A stretch of DNA of 50,458 nt from Spirochaetales bacterium (lineage in GTDB: Bacteria; Spirochaetota; Spirochaetia; Treponematales; Treponemataceae). Within the stretch, counting starts at the first letter, position 1, and each line of letters opens with the position of its first letter. The notes beneath the pieces are model-generated. The model saw only the letters and a list, made by a program, of their open reading frames with translations. It did not search any database and was not told where the DNA came from. The DNA lies in the NCBI GenBank assembly GCA_003246335.1, contig QKAR01000034.1, positions 1 to 50,458 of the forward strand, given 5' to 3'. Shown one piece after another: positions 37,840-45,964 of this stretch. The translations under genes were made by a program, and so were the position numbers.

Positions 37840-37864
37840 TGAATTAGGATTGAGGAGGACTGGT

Positions 37865-38476
37865 ATGAAAATTCGTGTAATGATGATCATCGCTTCCCTG
37901 AGCGCGCTCGCGCTGTTCTTCGGCTGTTCATCGACCCCGAAGGTCTCTCGGGTTGACGCCGATACGCAAACCGACCTTTCTGGATACTGGAACGATACCG
38001 ACGTGCGCATCGTGTGCGAAAGTCTCATAAACGACTGCCTCGGCTCGGCCCGGGTCGCCCAGTTTCAAACCCAAAAAGGCCGCATTCCGGTCGTGATCGT
38101 CGGCACGTTCAAGAACGACAGCGACGAGCACATCGATACGTCCATCATCACCAAAAAAATGGAGACCGCCATCCTCAATAGCGGCAAAGCCGACTTCGTC
38201 GCGAGTAAGTCCGAGCGGACCGAGTTGCGCGACGAGCGCCAGGAACAGCAGGCTTTCGCGAGCGAGGAGACCGCCAAGGCCCTGGCGAACGAAACCGGCG
38301 CGGACTTCATGATGATCGGCTCCGTTAAAACCATCGTCGACAAGGCCGGAAAGACGGCGACCCGGACTTACTTCGTCTACGGAGAGCTCGTCGACCTCGA
38401 GTCCAACCGGAAAATCTGGATGGGCGAGAACAGCGAAATCAAGAAAGTCATCAAGACCCCGTCCGCGAAGCTGTAA
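37865..38476 (+). CDS. lpoB: LpoB-like penicillin-binding-protein activator lipoprotein
   Basis: A 203-residue lipoprotein. Signal peptide with lipobox FFGC (Cys21). The mature part matches the LpoB/PF13036 pattern: ALINDCL-type helix (ESLINDCLGSARV), PVVIVGTFKNDSDEHIDTSIITKKME, then ANETGADFMMIGSVKTIV and YGELVDLESNRKIWMGE. In enterobacteria LpoB is an outer-membrane lipoprotein that reaches the peptidoglycan synthase PBP1B; the N-terminal linker here is short. No PBP gene is in the window. First gene of a three-lipoprotein operon. Confidence 0.88.
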   Translation: MKIRVMMIIASLSALALFFGCSSTPKVSRVDADTQTDLSGYWNDTDVRIVCESLINDCLGSARVAQFQTQKGRIPVVIVGTFKNDSDEHIDTSIITKKMETAILNSGKADFVASKSERTELRDERQEQQAFASEETAKALANETGADFMMIGSVKTIVDKAGKTATRTYFVYGELVDLESNRKIWMGENSEIKKVIKTPSAKL

Positions 38477-38490
38477 TCGCGAGCGCCTAC

Positions 38491-39825
38491 ATGAAACTGC
38501 TTTCACCAGCGACGGCGCTGGCGCTATCCGCCGCCCTCGCCGTCACGGCCCTTTCGGGTTGCTCGTCGGTCGCCCATTACGCCGACATCGACGCGGCGGT
38601 CATGCGCGGCGACTATCAGGACGGGCTCGCGAAAGTACGGGCGGCGAAGGATGACTCCTACGGAAAAAACGACCGCGTGCTCTATTACCTCGACGAGGGC
38701 ATGATCGCCCATTACGCCGGGGAATTCGGCGAGTCGTCGGCGTCTCTCGGCGAGGCCGAGCGAGCGATCGAGTCGGCCTACACGAAGAGCGTCACGCTCG
38801 CCGCGTCCTCATTCCTCGTCAACGACAACGTGCTCGAGTATCCCGGCGAGGATTACGAGGACCTATATCTTAACGCGTTCAATTCCCTCAACTATTACCG
38901 GGCCGGCGACCTTGAGGGAGCCCTCGTCGAGATTCGCCGCGTCGACAATAAGCTGAAGTTCCTCTCGACGAAGTACGGGACCGCGATTTCGAACGCGCAG
39001 TCCGCCGTCCTCGAGAAGACGAGCGACGAGATACCGTATGACAGCGAGGAAGCTCGCGTCGAGTTCACGAACTCCGCGCTCGGCCGGTACTTAAGCATGC
39101 TGTTTTACCGAGGCGAGGGAAAGTGGGACGACGCGCGCATCGACTCCGACCAGATCAGGCTCGCGTTCGCGAATCAGCCCCGCGTCTACGCGTTCGCGCC
39201 GCCGGCTTCCCTTCCCGACGAGCTTTCGGTTCCCGCCGGTAAGGCGCGGCTTAACGTCGTCAGCTTTTCCGGCCTCTCCCCGATTAAAACCGAAAACACC
39301 ACGAGAATTCAGCTTGGCTCCTCGAATTGGCTCAAGATTTCGCTTCCCGTCATGACTCAGCGCCCGTCGCGCGTCGCGCGCACCGAGGTCGTGTTGGACT
39401 CGGGGGAGAGCTTCGACCTTGAGCTCATCGAGGATATCGGCGCCGTCGCCACCGAGACCTTCCGGCAGAAAGCCGCGCTCATTTACTTCAAGACGATCGC
39501 GCGTTCCCTCGTGAAAACGTCCTCGTCGATCGCGCTAAAGGAGCAGTCGCGGCAAACGGACGATTCCGGCGCGTCGCTCCTTTTGGGAGTGCTGAGCTTA
39601 GGAACCCAGCTCTACGCCGAGGCGAGCGAGCAGGCCGACTTGCGGCTATCGCGGTATTTTCCCTCGAAAGCCTACGTCGGCGGTATCACGATCGACCCCG
39701 GCGCGTGTTCCTTTAGCGTGCGCTACTACGACGGCTCTGGCGATATCATTCGCGAGCAGCGGTTCGAGAACGTCGACGTGCGCGCGAATCGGCTGAATTT
39801 AACGGAGGCGATATGCATAAATTGA
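38491..39825 (+). CDS. COG3014-like lipoprotein
   Basis: A 444-residue lipoprotein. Signal peptide and lipobox LSGC with Cys24. The first 170 mature residues are helical and repeat-like, with TPR-type spacing (DYQDGLAKVRAAKDD, GMIAHYAGEFGESSASLGEAE, NYYRAGDLEGALVEIRRVDNK). The second half is richer in beta strand and ends with a domain around GGITIDPGACSFSVRYYDGSG. I recall this as the COG3014 family, uncharacterised, often next to LpoB and LPP20 genes in vibrios. A scaffold role in the periplasm is suggested by the TPR-like part. It overlaps the next gene by 13 bases. Confidence 0.72.
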   Translation: MKLLSPATALALSAALAVTALSGCSSVAHYADIDAAVMRGDYQDGLAKVRAAKDDSYGKNDRVLYYLDEGMIAHYAGEFGESSASLGEAERAIESAYTKSVTLAASSFLVNDNVLEYPGEDYEDLYLNAFNSLNYYRAGDLEGALVEIRRVDNKLKFLSTKYGTAISNAQSAVLEKTSDEIPYDSEEARVEFTNSALGRYLSMLFYRGEGKWDDARIDSDQIRLAFANQPRVYAFAPPASLPDELSVPAGKARLNVVSFSGLSPIKTENTTRIQLGSSNWLKISLPVMTQRPSRVARTEVVLDSGESFDLELIEDIGAVATETFRQKAALIYFKTIARSLVKTSSSIALKEQSRQTDDSGASLLLGVLSLGTQLYAEASEQADLRLSRYFPSKAYVGGITIDPGACSFSVRYYDGSGDIIREQRFENVDVRANRLNLTEAICIN

Positions 39826-40874
39826 CGGTTATCCTCGGCGCCGCGGGCTTGGCCTTAAGCCTCGCGTCGTGCGCCACGACCTCATCGAGCGAAAAAGGCG
39901 GCTCCGCCCCGAAGGCAGAGCCCTCATGGGTCTCAAACCCGCGCTCATCGTATCCCGAAGCCCAATACGTCGCGGCGACCGGCTACGGCGAGGATCGGGG
40001 CACGGCGGAAAAAGACGCGCTCGGTTCCCTCATTTCGATTTTCGGGCAAAAAATAACCGGCGAGACGACGGTGAGTTCCCGCTATTCCGAGGCCGTCAAG
40101 AGCGGCCAAGTGCGCGTATCGGAAGATTCCGACGTGAATCGCGCGGTCGCGAGCTCGTTCGACCTTGAGTCCGTCGTCGGCGCTGAAATTAAGGACACGT
40201 GGTTCGACGGAAAGACTTACTACGCGGTAGCGGTGATGGATAAGGCGAAAGCCTCCTTGACTTACGCCAAGCTGATCGAGGACGACGAGGATACGATCCG
40301 GTCCCTGCTCGATATTCCTTCCTCTGATAGGTCGACGCTCGACGCCTATGCCCGGTATGACTTGGCCGCGACGATCGCTGACGCGAACGCGCGTTTTTTG
40401 AACGTTCTTTCCGTGCTGAGCCCGGCTCAAGCTTCCGCGAAGCGCGCTTCCGTGAGTAACGGCGATTCGCTTCGGGTTGAATGCCTGAAAATCGCGCAGG
40501 GCATCCCAATCGGCATTGACGTCGCCGGCGACCGCGACGGCCGTATCGCGGCCGCGTTCGCGTCGGTCGTCTCTGCCGCGGGCTTTAAGAGCGGCGGTAA
40601 AGACTCCCGCTACGTCATCAAGGCAAACGTCTCGTTCTCCGAAGTCGTGCTTAACGGGAACCCCAATAAGTTCATTCGGTACCTCGTTGACGCGAAGCTG
40701 ACCGATACCGCGACGGGCTCCGTGCTCGTGCCGTATTCGACGAACGGACGCGAAGGGCACGTCACCGCCTCCGAGGCGGAAGTGCGCGCCTTGCGCGCGG
40801 CGGAAACGAAAATTAAGGACGATTACGGGGCCGCGTTCGCGGAGTACCTTTCCCGCCTAACGGCGAAAAAATAG
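39813..40874 (+). CDS. LPP20-family lipoprotein
   Basis: A 353-residue lipoprotein with lipobox LASC (Cys20). The region PSWVSNPRSSYPEAQYVAATGYGEDRGTAEKDALGSLISIFGQKI is typical of LPP20/FlgP-type proteins, followed by TWFDGKTYYAVAVMDKAKA. The second half is a separate domain with a VIKANVSFSEVVLNGNPNKFIRYLVDAKL strand pair, resembling the outer-membrane assembly folds of the same family. Function unknown; relatives are outer-membrane lipoproteins, some tied to flagellar sheath or motility. Last gene of the lipoprotein operon; GGAGG precedes its ATG. Confidence 0.78.
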   Translation: MHKLTVILGAAGLALSLASCATTSSSEKGGSAPKAEPSWVSNPRSSYPEAQYVAATGYGEDRGTAEKDALGSLISIFGQKITGETTVSSRYSEAVKSGQVRVSEDSDVNRAVASSFDLESVVGAEIKDTWFDGKTYYAVAVMDKAKASLTYAKLIEDDEDTIRSLLDIPSSDRSTLDAYARYDLAATIADANARFLNVLSVLSPAQASAKRASVSNGDSLRVECLKIAQGIPIGIDVAGDRDGRIAAAFASVVSAAGFKSGGKDSRYVIKANVSFSEVVLNGNPNKFIRYLVDAKLTDTATGSVLVPYSTNGREGHVTASEAEVRALRAAETKIKDDYGAAFAEYLSRLTAKK

Positions 40875-40900: not shown

Positions 40901-41974
40901 TCAGAACCGGGCGACGAAACCGATCGTTACGTCGACGGGATGCGCCCCTTCGCGGGAATTTTCCGGCAACAGCGTCGATGCGAGGGCCGTCAGCTCAAGG
41001 CCCTGTCGCGCTTGCCACGAGGCCCCGAGCGCGGTCGTTTTATTTTCGCACGCGAGGAAGGCCTGCGCGCCGACGGTTAGGGTATCGGTGATGCTTGCCT
41101 CTACCGAAGGATACCAAAGCCATTCGTCATGGCGCGGGTAGAGGAGAAATTCGCATCGCGCGGCGATCGGCGTCCGGTCGATCAGCCTGAAAAGCCTGAA
41201 AATTCCGCCCGAAACCCCGAACTCGGCTTCGCCGGATTTCCCCCGCGCGGGAACGTCGGCCGAAGCCGCCGCGTACCAATCGAAAAAAAGCGAGCCGTCG
41301 ATCGCGACGAAGGGCTTATGCGCGGCGTCCCTTTCATACAGATACCCCGCTTCCGCGGAATGGAAAAACCGTGCGGCGGGAGTGACCGCGATTCGCGCGC
41401 CGGACCTGAGCCATTCAGTATCGCCGCCGTCCGGTATCGGCGGAAGGGCGACGGCCTCGGCGAAGCTAAAGTCCCCGAGCGGCGCGTAGGCGACCGCCAT
41501 CCAATCGGCGTCGACCCGATAGGCGCCGGTCGAAAGCCGTTCCACGTCCGGTATCGCGGCGAAAATGGGATCCCCCGCGTTGAAGAGAAACCCCTTGCCC
41601 CAGGCGAGCGGGGCTTTCCCGAGCGTGAGCCGAAACGCTGTATCCTCGACGATCCACGGGAATCTGACTTTCGCGTAGGCTCGATCGATGGCGGGCGACG
41701 CATCCTCCGTGACCGTCACGAGCGCGCTCCCCTTGAAGTCCCCGTTTTTGTCCGCGTCGACCCCAATGCGAAACCCGGCGGCGTAATAGTCGCCGTTTTC
41801 CTCGACGCCTGCCGAGCCGACGGCCGCCGTTCCCGACGCGAAAACTTCTCCCGTCGGGACGACGTTCGCGTAAGCGCCGGTCTCGACCGCTAAAAAAACG
41901 AGCGCCGCTACCGAGAGCGGGCCAAGCGACGCGAAAGGCCGCCTCGGGCGCGCCGACGCTCGGCGCGTTACCAC
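40901..41974 (-). CDS. Predicted outer-membrane beta-barrel protein
   Basis: A 357-residue protein. A long basic signal peptide (cleavage likely after GAYA, about residue 36) is followed by alternating polar/aromatic strands through the whole length and a C-terminal strand ending VTIGFVARF, with the terminal Phe recognised by the Bam machinery. It lacks homology I can name. Its GTG start overlaps the stop of the LolA-like gene, placing it last in a five-gene operon with an FtsX-type ABC transporter. It could be the outer-membrane exit or acceptor of that system. Barrel call rests on strand pattern and end residue. Confidence 0.72.
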   Translation of the reverse strand: MVTRRASARPRRPFASLGPLSVAALVFLAVETGAYANVVPTGEVFASGTAAVGSAGVEENGDYYAAGFRIGVDADKNGDFKGSALVTVTEDASPAIDRAYAKVRFPWIVEDTAFRLTLGKAPLAWGKGFLFNAGDPIFAAIPDVERLSTGAYRVDADWMAVAYAPLGDFSFAEAVALPPIPDGGDTEWLRSGARIAVTPAARFFHSAEAGYLYERDAAHKPFVAIDGSLFFDWYAAASADVPARGKSGEAEFGVSGGIFRLFRLIDRTPIAARCEFLLYPRHDEWLWYPSVEASITDTLTVGAQAFLACENKTTALGASWQARQGLELTALASTLLPENSREGAHPVDVTIGFVARF

Positions 41975-42699
41975 GAAAGTTCCTCGCGGTTAAAGTAAGA
42001 GTTCGGGATTTCGACGCCGAGCTCGACACGCGTGAGCGTCAATTCCGACGTCGTGTTTTTTTTCAGCAAGTCGCGCATTACGCTCGAAAAGGGAATGTAT
42101 TTCCCCGAAACCTCGCGCACGTCGGCGCATGACATTTCCCGAATAGCCTTTCCCGACGCGCTGAAAAATATCCCGTGGACGGCGACGTAGGAGCGCCTGT
42201 CGACGAGCAGCTCTTGGCGGGCGTAGGCCTCGTTTCGCGTTTTCGCCGTGAGCGCGATTTTCCAGCAGGGCGCCCCGACGTAGGTTTCCTCGCCGAGAAG
42301 CGCGGCGTCGTAGCGACTCAGGATCGTTCCGTCGTCGGTGAGGTCTTCGTACGAAAAATCCGAGCCCATCATCGAGTCCTTCAGGGCGCTTCCTTTCAGC
42401 CAAATGACCTCTTCCGCGTCGGGATAGTAGAGATACACGCTATCTTTTTGACGAAGGACTTTCTGTCCCCGATCGGGGCCGGCGGTGACGACGACGAGGG
42501 TATCGCCGCCCGATCGAGAATAGGCGGTAAATGAGCTTTCCGTCACGCCGAGCCGGTTTCGCGCGACGAGTTTCGCGTCCATCGACGAGGCGTCATACGT
42601 TTGGTTTCGCTCGACGCGCCGCACGATATCGGTGACGTCCTCCGCGCGCGCGAGGCATCCGAGCGACACAAACACAAACGCGGCGATTGCCTTGTTCAT
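41968..42699 (-). CDS. LolA-like periplasmic lipoprotein-sorting protein
   Basis: A 243-residue exported protein with signal peptide cleaved after ARA (about residue 19). The mature chain follows the outer-membrane lipoprotein-sorting (LolA/LolB-fold, PF17131-type) pattern: IVRRVERNQTYDASSMDAKLV at the start, then DSVYLYYPDAEEVIWLKGSALKDSMMGSDFSYEDL and a late VDRRSYVAVHGIFFS strand. Such proteins hold acyl chains in a half-barrel and carry them over the periplasm. Located between two FtsX-type permeases and a barrel protein, it is probably the shuttle of that system. GGAGG precedes the ATG. Confidence 0.86.
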   Translation of the reverse strand: MNKAIAAFVFVSLGCLARAEDVTDIVRRVERNQTYDASSMDAKLVARNRLGVTESSFTAYSRSGGDTLVVVTAGPDRGQKVLRQKDSVYLYYPDAEEVIWLKGSALKDSMMGSDFSYEDLTDDGTILSRYDAALLGEETYVGAPCWKIALTAKTRNEAYARQELLVDRRSYVAVHGIFFSASGKAIREMSCADVREVSGKYIPFSSVMRDLLKKNTTSELTLTRVELGVEIPNSYFNREELSW

Positions 42700-42724
42700 G
42701 CGTTCCTCCTTCGGGCCAAGGCCC

Positions 42725-43960
42725 TCAGCGATCGGCCAACGCGTCGGCGGGTTCTACGCGCGCCGCCAAGCGGGCGGGGAAGAGACAGGCGACCGCCGAA
42801 ACCGCGACGCCGGTCACGAAAATCTGGGCGTATTGCCGGGCAAGAAGGGCGGGGTAGACGATCTTCGAGTATCCGGTCCCGCTCATGTCTTTCCCGTACA
42901 TCGCCTCAATGTCGAATCCCGCGCGTCCCCATAGCGCGACGAGGGTACCCCCCGCGACGAGTCCCGCGACGGCGCCGAGTATCGCGATGAGCGCGGACTC
43001 AGCGAGGAAAAGTCGCGAGATGGCCCCTTTTCCCATGCCGAGGGCGGCAAGCGTCCCGATCTCGCGCTTTCTCTCGAGGACGGACATCATGGTGGTATTG
43101 AAGACTACCGTGCTCGCGAGCAGATAAAACACGACGCCGTATATCGCGTACACTATGTCGGCCATTTCCAGAAAACCGTAAAGTCCGCCGATTTTATACC
43201 AAGGAATGATTTGCATCCTTTGGGCGCGCTCGCCGAGAGCGGCTCCGGTCGAGGCGAGCCCTTCGTCCATCCGCTTCGGGTTCGAGAGGAATACCTGTAT
43301 TTGCAAGGCGCCGTCGCCCATGCGGAGAAAATCCGCGACCGTTTCCCAATCGGCGAAGAACACGCGCTCGGAAAGGCTTGCGTCGGCGAATGAGGCGATT
43401 CCCGCCACGGTGAAGGTCTTTCCGTTCGTTCCCGATATCGCCGTTCGCGCGAGCACCGTGATTTTGTCGCCCGGCTTGAGGTTAAGCTCGTCGGCGAGAC
43501 CCTTCGCGACGAGGATTCCCGAGGATAGCGAGCCGGGGACGTGCCCGGAAACGACGCGGTCGTTAACGCCGGTAAGGAGCGGCGCCCGCGCGAAATCGAC
43601 CCCGACCATGCGGCACGGCACGCGGTCGCCGGTTCGGTAGATAGCGACCGTCGTTTCCGTCCTTGGGACGGCGAGCGCTATTCCGGGCGCGCTTTCGAGC
43701 CGCTTCGCCGTTTCGCGCGCGTTTTCGACGGAGAATTGCAGGGGCGCGACGCGCTCGCTTTTCGCGTAACGCGCGTCCATCACCCTGATGTCGCCGGTGA
43801 CGTGATTTTTCACGTTCGATTTCATGTCGTCGACGTACGCGGTCTCGAGCGAAAGAATGATGCACATCACGACGGTGCTCGCGAGGATGGCGGTTCCCGA
43901 AAGGACGGTTCGGCCCCGGTTTCTCCACATGTTTCGCCAAGCCGCGCGCGCGACGTTCAT
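42725..43960 (-). CDS. ABC transporter permease, FtsX/MacB type (second)
   Basis: A 411-residue permease. One N-terminal helix (about 15-40), a periplasmic core of about 230 residues, then three helices of the FtsX domain (about 265-290, 315-345, 370-395), the topology of LolC/LolE and MacB. This class moves lipoproteins or drives periplasmic work instead of classical transport. It follows its sister permease after a 9-base gap. ATG at 43960 is preferred to a GTG two codons earlier because the GGGGG ribosome site lies too close to the GTG. Confidence 0.88.
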   Translation of the reverse strand: MNVARAAWRNMWRNRGRTVLSGTAILASTVVMCIILSLETAYVDDMKSNVKNHVTGDIRVMDARYAKSERVAPLQFSVENARETAKRLESAPGIALAVPRTETTVAIYRTGDRVPCRMVGVDFARAPLLTGVNDRVVSGHVPGSLSSGILVAKGLADELNLKPGDKITVLARTAISGTNGKTFTVAGIASFADASLSERVFFADWETVADFLRMGDGALQIQVFLSNPKRMDEGLASTGAALGERAQRMQIIPWYKIGGLYGFLEMADIVYAIYGVVFYLLASTVVFNTTMMSVLERKREIGTLAALGMGKGAISRLFLAESALIAILGAVAGLVAGGTLVALWGRAGFDIEAMYGKDMSGTGYSKIVYPALLARQYAQIFVTGVAVSAVACLFPARLAARVEPADALADR

Positions 43961-43969
43961 GCCCACCCC

Positions 43970-45214
43970 CTATTTTCTCAAAATATCGGCGACTTCCCGC
44001 TTGAGCGTTTTGCCCGAGGGAAACCAGGCGACGAACGTCGAGATCGCGAGCGCGCCGATGCCGATGCGCGCGATGCCGGCCACGTTCCACGCCGAGCGGA
44101 TGACTCCGGTCGACCGGTACCCGATATCCGTGTCCCGCAGCATGCCCGACAAATCGAAGCCGTGGCGAACCATAAAGGCGTTCGCGCAACAGCCCAAGAG
44201 GATGCCCGCGACCGCTCCGATAAGGCCGATGCAAAACCCCTCGGCGAGGAACAGCGCCCGTATGGATATTTTCTGGAAACCGAGCGCGCGTAGCATCCCG
44301 ATCTCGTTTTTTCGCTCCATGACCGCCATGAGCATCGTATTCGTCACGCCGACGGCCGCGATCACGAAAATGAAAAAGAGAAAAACCGCGCTTTCCCGTT
44401 CCTGTCCTTTCAGGAGCCGGAGCGTCGAGTCCGCTATGGCGCGCCAATCTCGGAATTCGTAGCCTCGCTCGGCGGACTCCTCGTCCGGGGCACGCTCGCG
44501 GGCGGCCGCCAATTTCGCGGGCGAATCCGCCCGCAGCGCGTACTCGGTGACCGCGCCGTCGAGGGCGAGCAAGTCGTCGGCGAGGGCGAGCTCCATGAAG
44601 ACGGCGTCCCGATTCACTATCGGGTCGTCGGTCGTGGCGATGCCGACGACGCGGGCGTCGAACGTTTGGTAAAAACCACCGCGCCCTCGGCATTCGACGG
44701 TCACGACTGTACCGACCGTGGCGCCGATATCCTCGGCGAGCCAGCTTCCGACGACGATTCCCTCGTCTTCGAGCGCGAGCCATCTTCCGGAACTGATCGA
44801 ATTCGCCGATCGGAATACCTCGCCGTCGCGAGAAGCGTCGACCGCGTAGACGGTCGCGGTGAGGGATCCCGCGACGGCGAAGGAATCTTCCGCGAAATAC
44901 AGTTCCGCCGCAAAAACGGCGCGGGGCGCGATTCTGTATCCCTCGTAGTCGCGCTCGATCCGTTTTGCCTGATCGCGCTCAATGAATCGGTCGAAAGGGA
45001 GAAATTCCCGGTCGGCGAAATAACCCGCCGGGTAAATTTTACCTTCCCCGGTCTCAAAGTCCCGCACGTTTCTGACCGTCTCGCTTTCCGATCCGGCGAT
45101 GAATCCGTCCATCGCGATCGTGAACATGACGCCGACGGCGATGGCCGACGCGGTGATGACCGTTCGCCTGCGATAGCGAAAAACGTTTAAGGCGGCCATC
45201 TTGAGGCCGATCAC
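43970..45214 (-). CDS. ABC transporter permease, FtsX/MacB type (first)
   Basis: A 414-residue permease of the same 1+3 helix design as the next gene, with the FtsX C-terminal domain (ITNTMLMAVMERKNEIGMLRALGF-type stretch) that carries the coupling element contacting the ATPase. The two permeases are similar but not identical, as for LolC and LolE. GTG start overlapping the ATPase stop (GTGA). A heterodimer with the second permease and the LolD-like ATPase is expected. Confidence 0.88.
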   Translation of the reverse strand: MIGLKMAALNVFRYRRRTVITASAIAVGVMFTIAMDGFIAGSESETVRNVRDFETGEGKIYPAGYFADREFLPFDRFIERDQAKRIERDYEGYRIAPRAVFAAELYFAEDSFAVAGSLTATVYAVDASRDGEVFRSANSISSGRWLALEDEGIVVGSWLAEDIGATVGTVVTVECRGRGGFYQTFDARVVGIATTDDPIVNRDAVFMELALADDLLALDGAVTEYALRADSPAKLAAARERAPDEESAERGYEFRDWRAIADSTLRLLKGQERESAVFLFFIFVIAAVGVTNTMLMAVMERKNEIGMLRALGFQKISIRALFLAEGFCIGLIGAVAGILLGCCANAFMVRHGFDLSGMLRDTDIGYRSTGVIRSAWNVAGIARIGIGALAISTFVAWFPSGKTLKREVADILRK

Positions 45215-45897
45215 GGCGCTACCCCCGAATCGGCCACGATTTTGCCGTCGTGAAGCGACACGACGCGGCGTGCTCGCGCCATCACCATGCGATCGTGCGT
45301 GGAAAAAACGAAGGTAACCCCGAGTTCCCGGTTGAGGCGATCCATGAGCGCGAGAATTTCCTCGCCGGTTTTCGAGTCAAGGTTCGCGGTCGGCTCGTCG
45401 GCGAGGATGACCGGCGGTTTTTTCACGAGGGCGCGCGCAATCGAGACGCGTTGCTGTTGCCCGCCGGAAAGCTCAGTCGGGCGTCTTTTCTCCAATCCGG
45501 AAAGGCCTACCTCGGCGAGCATGGCGTCGGCTCGCTCGATTATGTCTCTCTCCCGCAAGTCCCCGAACAGCTCGAGCGCGAGGGCGACGTTTTCCCGCGC
45601 GGTGAGGACCGGTATGAGGTTGTAACTTTGGAACACGAAGCCGATCTTTTCCTTCCGGATCCGGTTTCGCTCTTTGGGGTTGAGTTTTGAAAGAGGGATT
45701 CCGTCGACCGTGATTTCGCCGGAACCGATGGAGTCGAGGCAGCCGATAAGGTTGAGGAGCGTCGTCTTACCCGAGCCGGAAGGGCCGCTGAGCGCGAGAA
45801 ATTCGCCCTTGTCGACGCGCATCGTGACGCCGTTTAGCGCCTCGACGCGAACCGACCCGGTTTGGTAAGTTTTTGTCACCCCAAGCACTTCGATCAT
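45211..45897 (-). CDS. LolD/MacB-type ABC ATPase
   Basis: A 228-residue single-domain ATPase. Walker [10 protein letters not shown] at 38-46, Q-loop [24 protein letters not shown] (the LolD-type form), signature LSGGQQQR and Walker [14 protein letters not shown] are complete. It powers the two FtsX-type permeases encoded directly downstream. First gene of the operon, with a strong promoter and a perfect palindrome in the leader. Confidence 0.92.
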
Positions 45898-45913
45898 CCG
45901 TTCTCCTCACGCC

Positions 45914-45927
45914 GCGTCGATCGACGC
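45914..45927 (-). promoter_or_regulatory. Palindrome in the leader of the LolD-like operon
   Basis: Perfect 14-bp palindrome GCGTCGATCGACGC, spanning about +2 to +15 relative to the predicted transcription start. Position suits a repressor operator. Confidence 0.45.
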
Positions 45928-45935
45928 TTAAGGAA

Positions 45936-45964
45936 AACATAGTGCCGCCGCCGCCCGCCGTCAA
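45936..45964 (-). promoter_or_regulatory. Promoter of the LolD-like operon
   Basis: Minus strand TTGACG (45964-45959), 17-bp spacer, TATGTT (45941-45936). Predicted start near 45929. Confidence 0.75.

Follow-up and report, generated by a model that had tools for sequence, protein, structure and literature searches.

How lipids and lipoproteins pass to and across the outer membrane of bacteria that lack LolB, the spirochaetes among them, is an open question. It is raised in compact form by five minus-strand genes in a 50,458-nucleotide stretch of DNA, here called the window, from a Spirochaetales bacterium (contig QKAR01000034.1 of assembly GCA_003246335.1; genome label G000). The genes, found at positions 40901-45964 of the window, encode in order of transcription an ATP-binding cassette (ABC) ATPase, permease 1, permease 2, a LolA-fold protein and an outer-membrane barrel. 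What does such a unit move, and where does it belong among known envelope pathways? We find that it is the ATP-driven sister of exporters that combine a resistance-nodulation-division (RND) transporter with a LolA-like protein and a barrel. On balance, we read it as a dedicated trans-envelope exporter of lipidic or hydrophobic cargo that is powered by ATP and ends at its own barrel, and not as the housekeeping lipoprotein route. The operon that encodes energiser, carrier and outer-membrane protein is compact and conserved and can be removed or rebuilt as a whole, which makes the question directly testable. The features of the unit are these:

45211..45897, minus strand: ABC ATPase (LolD/DevA/MacB-like), the first gene of the unit (PF00005, E = 7.8e-36; best NCBIfam models DevA, 229.9 bits, and LolD, 215.8 bits)
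43970..45214, minus strand: permease 1, type VII, with FtsX and MacB_PCD domains, about 414 residues; overlaps the ATPase gene by 4 nucleotides
42725..43966, minus strand: permease 2, type VII, with FtsX and MacB_PCD domains, about 414 residues; 24% identical to permease 1
41968..42699, minus strand: LolA-fold exported periplasmic shuttle, 243 residues, PF17131 (LolA3/DUF1329-like subgroup; E = 1e-43), with a model of predicted local distance difference test (pLDDT) score 88.9 and Z = 25.4 to 9tp6
40901..41974, minus strand: outer-membrane barrel, 357 residues, 18 predicted strands, signal peptide, C-terminal Phe, GTG start
41968..41974, minus strand: 7-nucleotide overlap of the shuttle and barrel genes, GTGGTAA (Trp-stop of one gene, Met-Val of the other), which recurs in relatives
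41561..41620, minus strand: most conserved barrel motif, GK..L.WG.G..FNAGD..F, residues 119-138, after strand 5
45936..45964, minus strand: weak promoter-like site, TTGACG-17-TATGTT (9/12), of a kind no more frequent than chance predicts

The five genes lie where the original prediction had placed them, with ends that overlap by 4 or 7 nucleotides or leave gaps of 3 or 25. Pfam searches identified ABC_tran in the ATPase (E = 8e-36), FtsX in permeases 1 and 2 (2e-17 and 4e-16, both alongside MacB_PCD) and LolA_like, PF17131, in the shuttle (1e-43); the barrel gene matched no Pfam or NCBIfam family. The FtsX and MacB-like core of both permeases, together with the MacB/LolD-like ATPase, identifies the inner-membrane part as a type VII ABC transporter of the MacB/LolCDE/FtsEX superfamily. 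That one promoter serves all five genes could not be established: a single promoter-like site was found, and such sites are no commoner here than in shuffled sequence.

The kinship with RND modules emerged from the last two genes of the unit. The same genome carries a cluster of RND (MMPL), PF17131 and barrel genes (L010:2205-7342, contig C1), whose shuttle and barrel are homologous to those of the window by profile. When barrels of ABC and RND units from the same order were compared, their profiles aligned end to end (hhalign score 124.7, E = 6e-16), against 18 for a reversed profile, less than 20 for shuffles and 33 for spirochaetal FadL barrels, and the score was still 100.8 after non-spirochaete rows were removed. 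The shuttles of the two unit types aligned with E = 9e-37. In a tree of 63 shuttles, a single branch (98/98) split the partners of ABC transporters from those of RND transporters, where shuffled labels need a mean of 15.7 changes. We therefore conclude that the two types share a common ancestry in shuttle and barrel and that each has remained faithful to its own energiser. PF17131 occurs in 288 of the 294 genomes of the order, and the best-scoring cases that we examined lie mostly in RND-LolA-like-barrel clusters; the window unit contains no RND (MMPL) energiser, and the ABC genes stand in its place.

The RND-LolA-like-barrel module is the closest working parallel to the window unit. Exporters that join an RND transporter (HAE3) to LolA-like/DUF1329 and DUF1302 barrel proteins, such as AmeABCD of Castellaniella defragrans, share with it and with the L010 cluster the plan of an inner-membrane energiser, a LolA-superfamily periplasmic protein and a barrel in one cluster. 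These RND systems differ from the window unit in that their energiser is a proton-driven RND transporter rather than an ATP-driven ABC transporter and in that their shuttles form a separate clade; AmeABCD also has one additional periplasmic protein. Deletion of AmeABCD lowers monoterpene tolerance (PMC6394551), and an MMPL/LolA-like protein of T. oleivorans is induced, together with an adjacent predicted porin, by a C28 alkane (PMC6304351). These experiments point to hydrophobic cargo for the RND relatives.

The shuttle, which the original prediction had called LolA-like, belongs to the PF17131/DUF1329-like proteins of the LolA3 type. The shuttle scored 149.6 bits on PF17131, for which the gathering score is 30 bits, and the family was matched by 36 of the 36 members of the shuttle alignment; a Pfam match of the shuttle to PF03548 (LolA) was absent. 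The folds nearest to its model were Porphyromonas gingivalis LolA3 (9tp6, Z = 25.4), the DUF1329 protein 4z48 (25.1), 3bk5 (24.3) and 3buu (21.3), with LolB (15.7) and LolA (about 13) more distant. A profile of shuttle relatives searched against the PDB returned the same four structures as its only significant sequence matches, with no LolA among them. From the fold ranking and the profile result, it follows that the shuttle is a member of a LolA-fold subgroup and not a LolA orthologue. P. gingivalis LolA3 is reported to be only a weak binder of the LolB of that species and has been proposed to have a separate function; unlike the window shuttle, it has no partner transporter or barrel named in the part of that report drawn on here (PMC13103446).

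The barrel was borne out as first described. AlphaFold2, given an alignment of 49 relatives, predicted 18 strands (mean pLDDT 87.5), and the strand count, a signal peptide judged by eye and the C-terminal Phe are those of an outer-membrane barrel. Solved structures that matched the model, with Z of 19-21 across some 280 residues, were OprD/Occ (OccK) porins, the MOMP of Campylobacter, AlgE and Wzi; in Foldseek the E-values ran from 1e-9 to 1e-6. Since these are tied, we assign the protein a typical 18-stranded porin/exporter fold and nothing more specific. A PDB sequence search with the barrel gave no match up to E = 10. Going by the usual topology, the conserved motif would sit in loop L3, which in porins is the loop lining the pore. 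Two other placements were considered and rejected. Membership of DUF1302 (PF06980) failed because the window protein has no Pfam match to that family, a relative (L029) reaching an E-value of 0.011, below the cut-off. An Omp85-type barrel like that proposed for Borrelia BBJ25 was set aside because profile similarity is absent (score 16); Omp85 structures were also missing from the top fold-search matches listed for the barrel, which does not in itself exclude an Omp85 likeness.

A GTDB genome scan with a permease-1 profile yielded 78 loci, and the complete five-gene order was present in 45 of them. Where the flanking sequence sufficed, the ATPase was found in 69/74 loci, permease 2 in 67/69, the LolA-like gene in 59/62 and the barrel in 46/57. 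Across many genera, then, the five genes are co-conserved far beyond chance; the original prediction had named a lack of co-conservation as an outcome that would refute it. Seven genomes, which represent the genus, its family and two further families within the order, keep the arrangement from ATPase to barrel intact. Three WOR-3/Stahlbacteria loci scored as lacking the barrel have it next to the ATPase, on the upstream side (hhalign 98.4%, E = 5e-15), and it directly follows the LolA-like gene in WOR-1, Elusimicrobia and two further non-spirochaete loci. The two same-genus genomes in which the search found no barrel are also without an orthologous permease. The 7-nucleotide overlap between shuttle and barrel genes is usual in relatives, as ATGGTAA or GTGGTAA, and its recurrence suggests that the two are translationally coupled. 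The idea of a pathway peculiar to spirochaetes has to be given up, given its presence in WOR-3, Stahlbacteria, WOR-1, Elusimicrobia and other groups, and in a single-permease form in Vibrio and Plesiomonas. Two irregularities were noted in the locus set. In L112, L115, L123 and L126, the LolA-like gene and the barrel are separated by a permease of the permease-1 type. The shuttle of L122, a locus labelled Cloacimonadota, clusters within Sphaerochaetales; we regard the contig as mis-binned or transferred and for that reason did not count it as independent.

In the exporter that we favour, the ATPase would power the permeases, which would extract lipidic or hydrophobic cargo from the inner membrane, as in LolCDE and YbbAP. 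The LolA-like protein would take this cargo into its greasy groove and ferry it across the periplasm, and the barrel, presumably co-translated with it, would accept the cargo and deliver it to the outer membrane or across it. A type VII precedent for the extraction of hydrophobic molecules is YbbAP-TesA, an ABC system thought to pass what it extracts to a periplasmic partner; this partner, however, is a hydrolase, and the system has neither shuttle nor barrel (PMC12646458). The regulators that accompany the unit in relatives are varied. An SPFH/stomatin gene lies near it in 38 loci and a GntR-type regulator in 32, in almost all cases immediately upstream of the ATPase gene; a TetR regulator occurs in five loci, and a winged-helix HTH_34 regulator in a same-genus relative and a Treponema. 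Such varied local regulators would suit a substrate- or stress-inducible exporter, and in relatives the unit is probably switched on by substrate or envelope stress. Several points weigh against the exporter. No regulator adjoins the copy in the window, whose upstream neighbour is a glycosyltransferase-4 family gene. The barrel model resembles general porins as much as exporters. One genome, G121, retains the ATPase and the barrel (L025:7216-9343) at a locus from which the permeases and the LolA-like gene are absent. Finally, the cargo, the direction of transport and the contact between shuttle and barrel are all things that we infer.

A less likely explanation, though the strongest of the competing ones, is a specialised second Lol pathway, in which certain lipoproteins would be extracted by the ABC transporter and carried by the LolA-like protein, and the barrel would stand in for LolB as receptor, inserting or flipping them at the outer membrane. 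The closest solved structures to permease 1 are LolF (3e-31) and LolE (3e-24), followed by YtrF (8e-23), the shuttle has the LolA fold, and spirochaetes, for which no LolB is known, carry numerous lipoproteins on their surface (PMC11784454). With LolCDE-LolA(-LolB) the window unit shares an ATPase, two FtsX permeases and a LolA-fold carrier. It differs in its carrier subgroup, in the added barrel, in the lack of LolB and in scores far under the LolCE and LolD cut-offs: the permeases reached 110.6 and 91.9 bits on TIGR02212 (lolCE; cut-off 362 bits), and the ATPase reached 215.8 bits on TIGR02211 (LolD; cut-off 307.75) and a higher but likewise sub-cut-off 229.9 on the DevA model.

A search of the remainder of the genome for a separate lolCDE/lolA set, as the original prediction had advised, was positive. 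A lolC-lolD-lolE-like set of permease, ATPase and permease lies on contig C60 (L008:6213-9614), its permeases scoring 220.7 and 177.6 bits on TIGR02212, below the cut-off but above those of the window, and the sole PF03548 LolA match of the genome lies on contig C112, downstream of an ftsH-like gene. We accordingly rejected the unit as the housekeeping Lol system, and the presence of the Lol-like set and a canonical LolA argues for the "different lipidic cargo" that had been offered as the other option. Further evidence runs against a second Lol pathway as well. For all shuttle-operon permeases that we examined, Borrelia BBJ27 and the Vibrio permease among them, the hairpin aligned to the presumed LolA-docking hook of LolC/LolF has 4 residues fewer than in the Lol-like permeases of the genome studied here, and as a sequence feature this may fit a different carrier. 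The unit contains no lipoprotein gene, the shuttle is not PF03548 and its profile retrieves no LolA from the PDB, and for LolA3, its nearest fold, LolB binding is reported to be no more than weak (PMC13103446). Of the Lol variant first envisaged, what stands is an inner-to-outer path encoded in one co-conserved unit with an integral barrel as its last component; the shuttle subgroup and the separate Lol set speak against the remainder. As a separate observation, the permease-ATPase-permease order of L008 occurs here in a spirochaete, and such an order has been described as confined to some gammaproteobacteria (PMC11784454).

The pathway had also been put forward as a candidate for an undescribed one, and here there is a precedent in part, though its barrel is another. 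The Borrelia cluster BBJ23-29, published in 2026, combines ABC and LolA-like genes with a proposed Omp85-type barrel, BBJ25; its authors suggest a non-polar cargo, possibly lipoproteins, which would also suit a second Lol pathway, and the seven-gene cluster was reported from Borrelia only (PMC13078400). An ABC ATPase, a type VII permease and a LolA-like protein are common to both systems; BBJ27 is a homologue of the permeases in the window (101 bits), and the neighbouring BBJ28 is a weak match to the window shuttle (12 bits). The Borrelia cluster differs in having one permease and two TPR proteins and in its BBJ25, whose profile, as noted, does not resemble that of the window barrel. BBJ29 (L178:8008-9009, Borrelia lp38), which follows the LolA-like gene BBJ28, contains a sequence, GRQ..Y.GNG..EN, that is similar to the barrel motif, and may be considered a weak candidate for the Borrelia counterpart of the barrel (7.1 bits, hhalign score 22).

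We judge it unlikely that the unit is a MacAB/Ytr-style efflux pump for toxic amphiphiles, with the barrel as a mere exit pore and the LolA-like protein as an adaptor. The MacB_PCD domains, the place of YtrF among the closest solved permeases and the GntR, TetR and HTH_34 regulators of relatives are consistent with such a pump, but the five-gene unit includes no MacA adaptor or TolC homologue, and the genome has a separate MacA-MacB-TolC cluster on contig C16. This explanation overlaps the dedicated exporter, the chief difference being the origin of the cargo. A retrograde line, in which a hydrophobic nutrient would enter by the barrel and be taken inward by the LolA-like protein, is very improbable: the barrel is porin-like and an alkane on which T. 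oleivorans grows induces its RND/LolA-like protein (PMC6304351), but known cargo-moving type VII ABC systems work outward or extract from the inner membrane, and AmeABCD acts as an exporter (PMC6394551).

Beyond the dedicated exporter itself, we advance only tentatively the wider proposal that the unit represents a widespread unnamed class of ATP-driven lipid delivery with an 18-stranded barrel, not a LolB-like lipoprotein, as terminal acceptor. If true, the ABC and RND types would form one "shuttle-and-barrel" exporter family with two energisers, and LolB-less diderms would gain a second route for lipids or lipoproteins to the outer membrane or the cell surface. The profile link to RND modules suggests a single general design with two power sources. 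It also lends context to proteins annotated as "outer membrane lipoprotein-sorting protein" or "hypothetical protein", possibly including Borrelia BBJ29.

The single-permease form is encoded by plasmid operons of Vibrio and Plesiomonas (L147:4078-9863, L149:3916-9909), which comprise an ATPase, one permease, a LolA-like protein and a hypothetical barrel-like protein with a GK..L.WG.G motif; genes for a histidine kinase and a LytTR regulator then follow. The Vibrio barrel matches the window family at the level of the motif only (hhalign 41), and we set it aside. In the window itself, genes for an LpoB-like protein, a 444-residue lipoprotein and an LPP20-like protein, all exported or lipoproteins, occupy positions 37850-40874 and are convergent with the barrel gene, and a similar arrangement is seen in L022 and L025.

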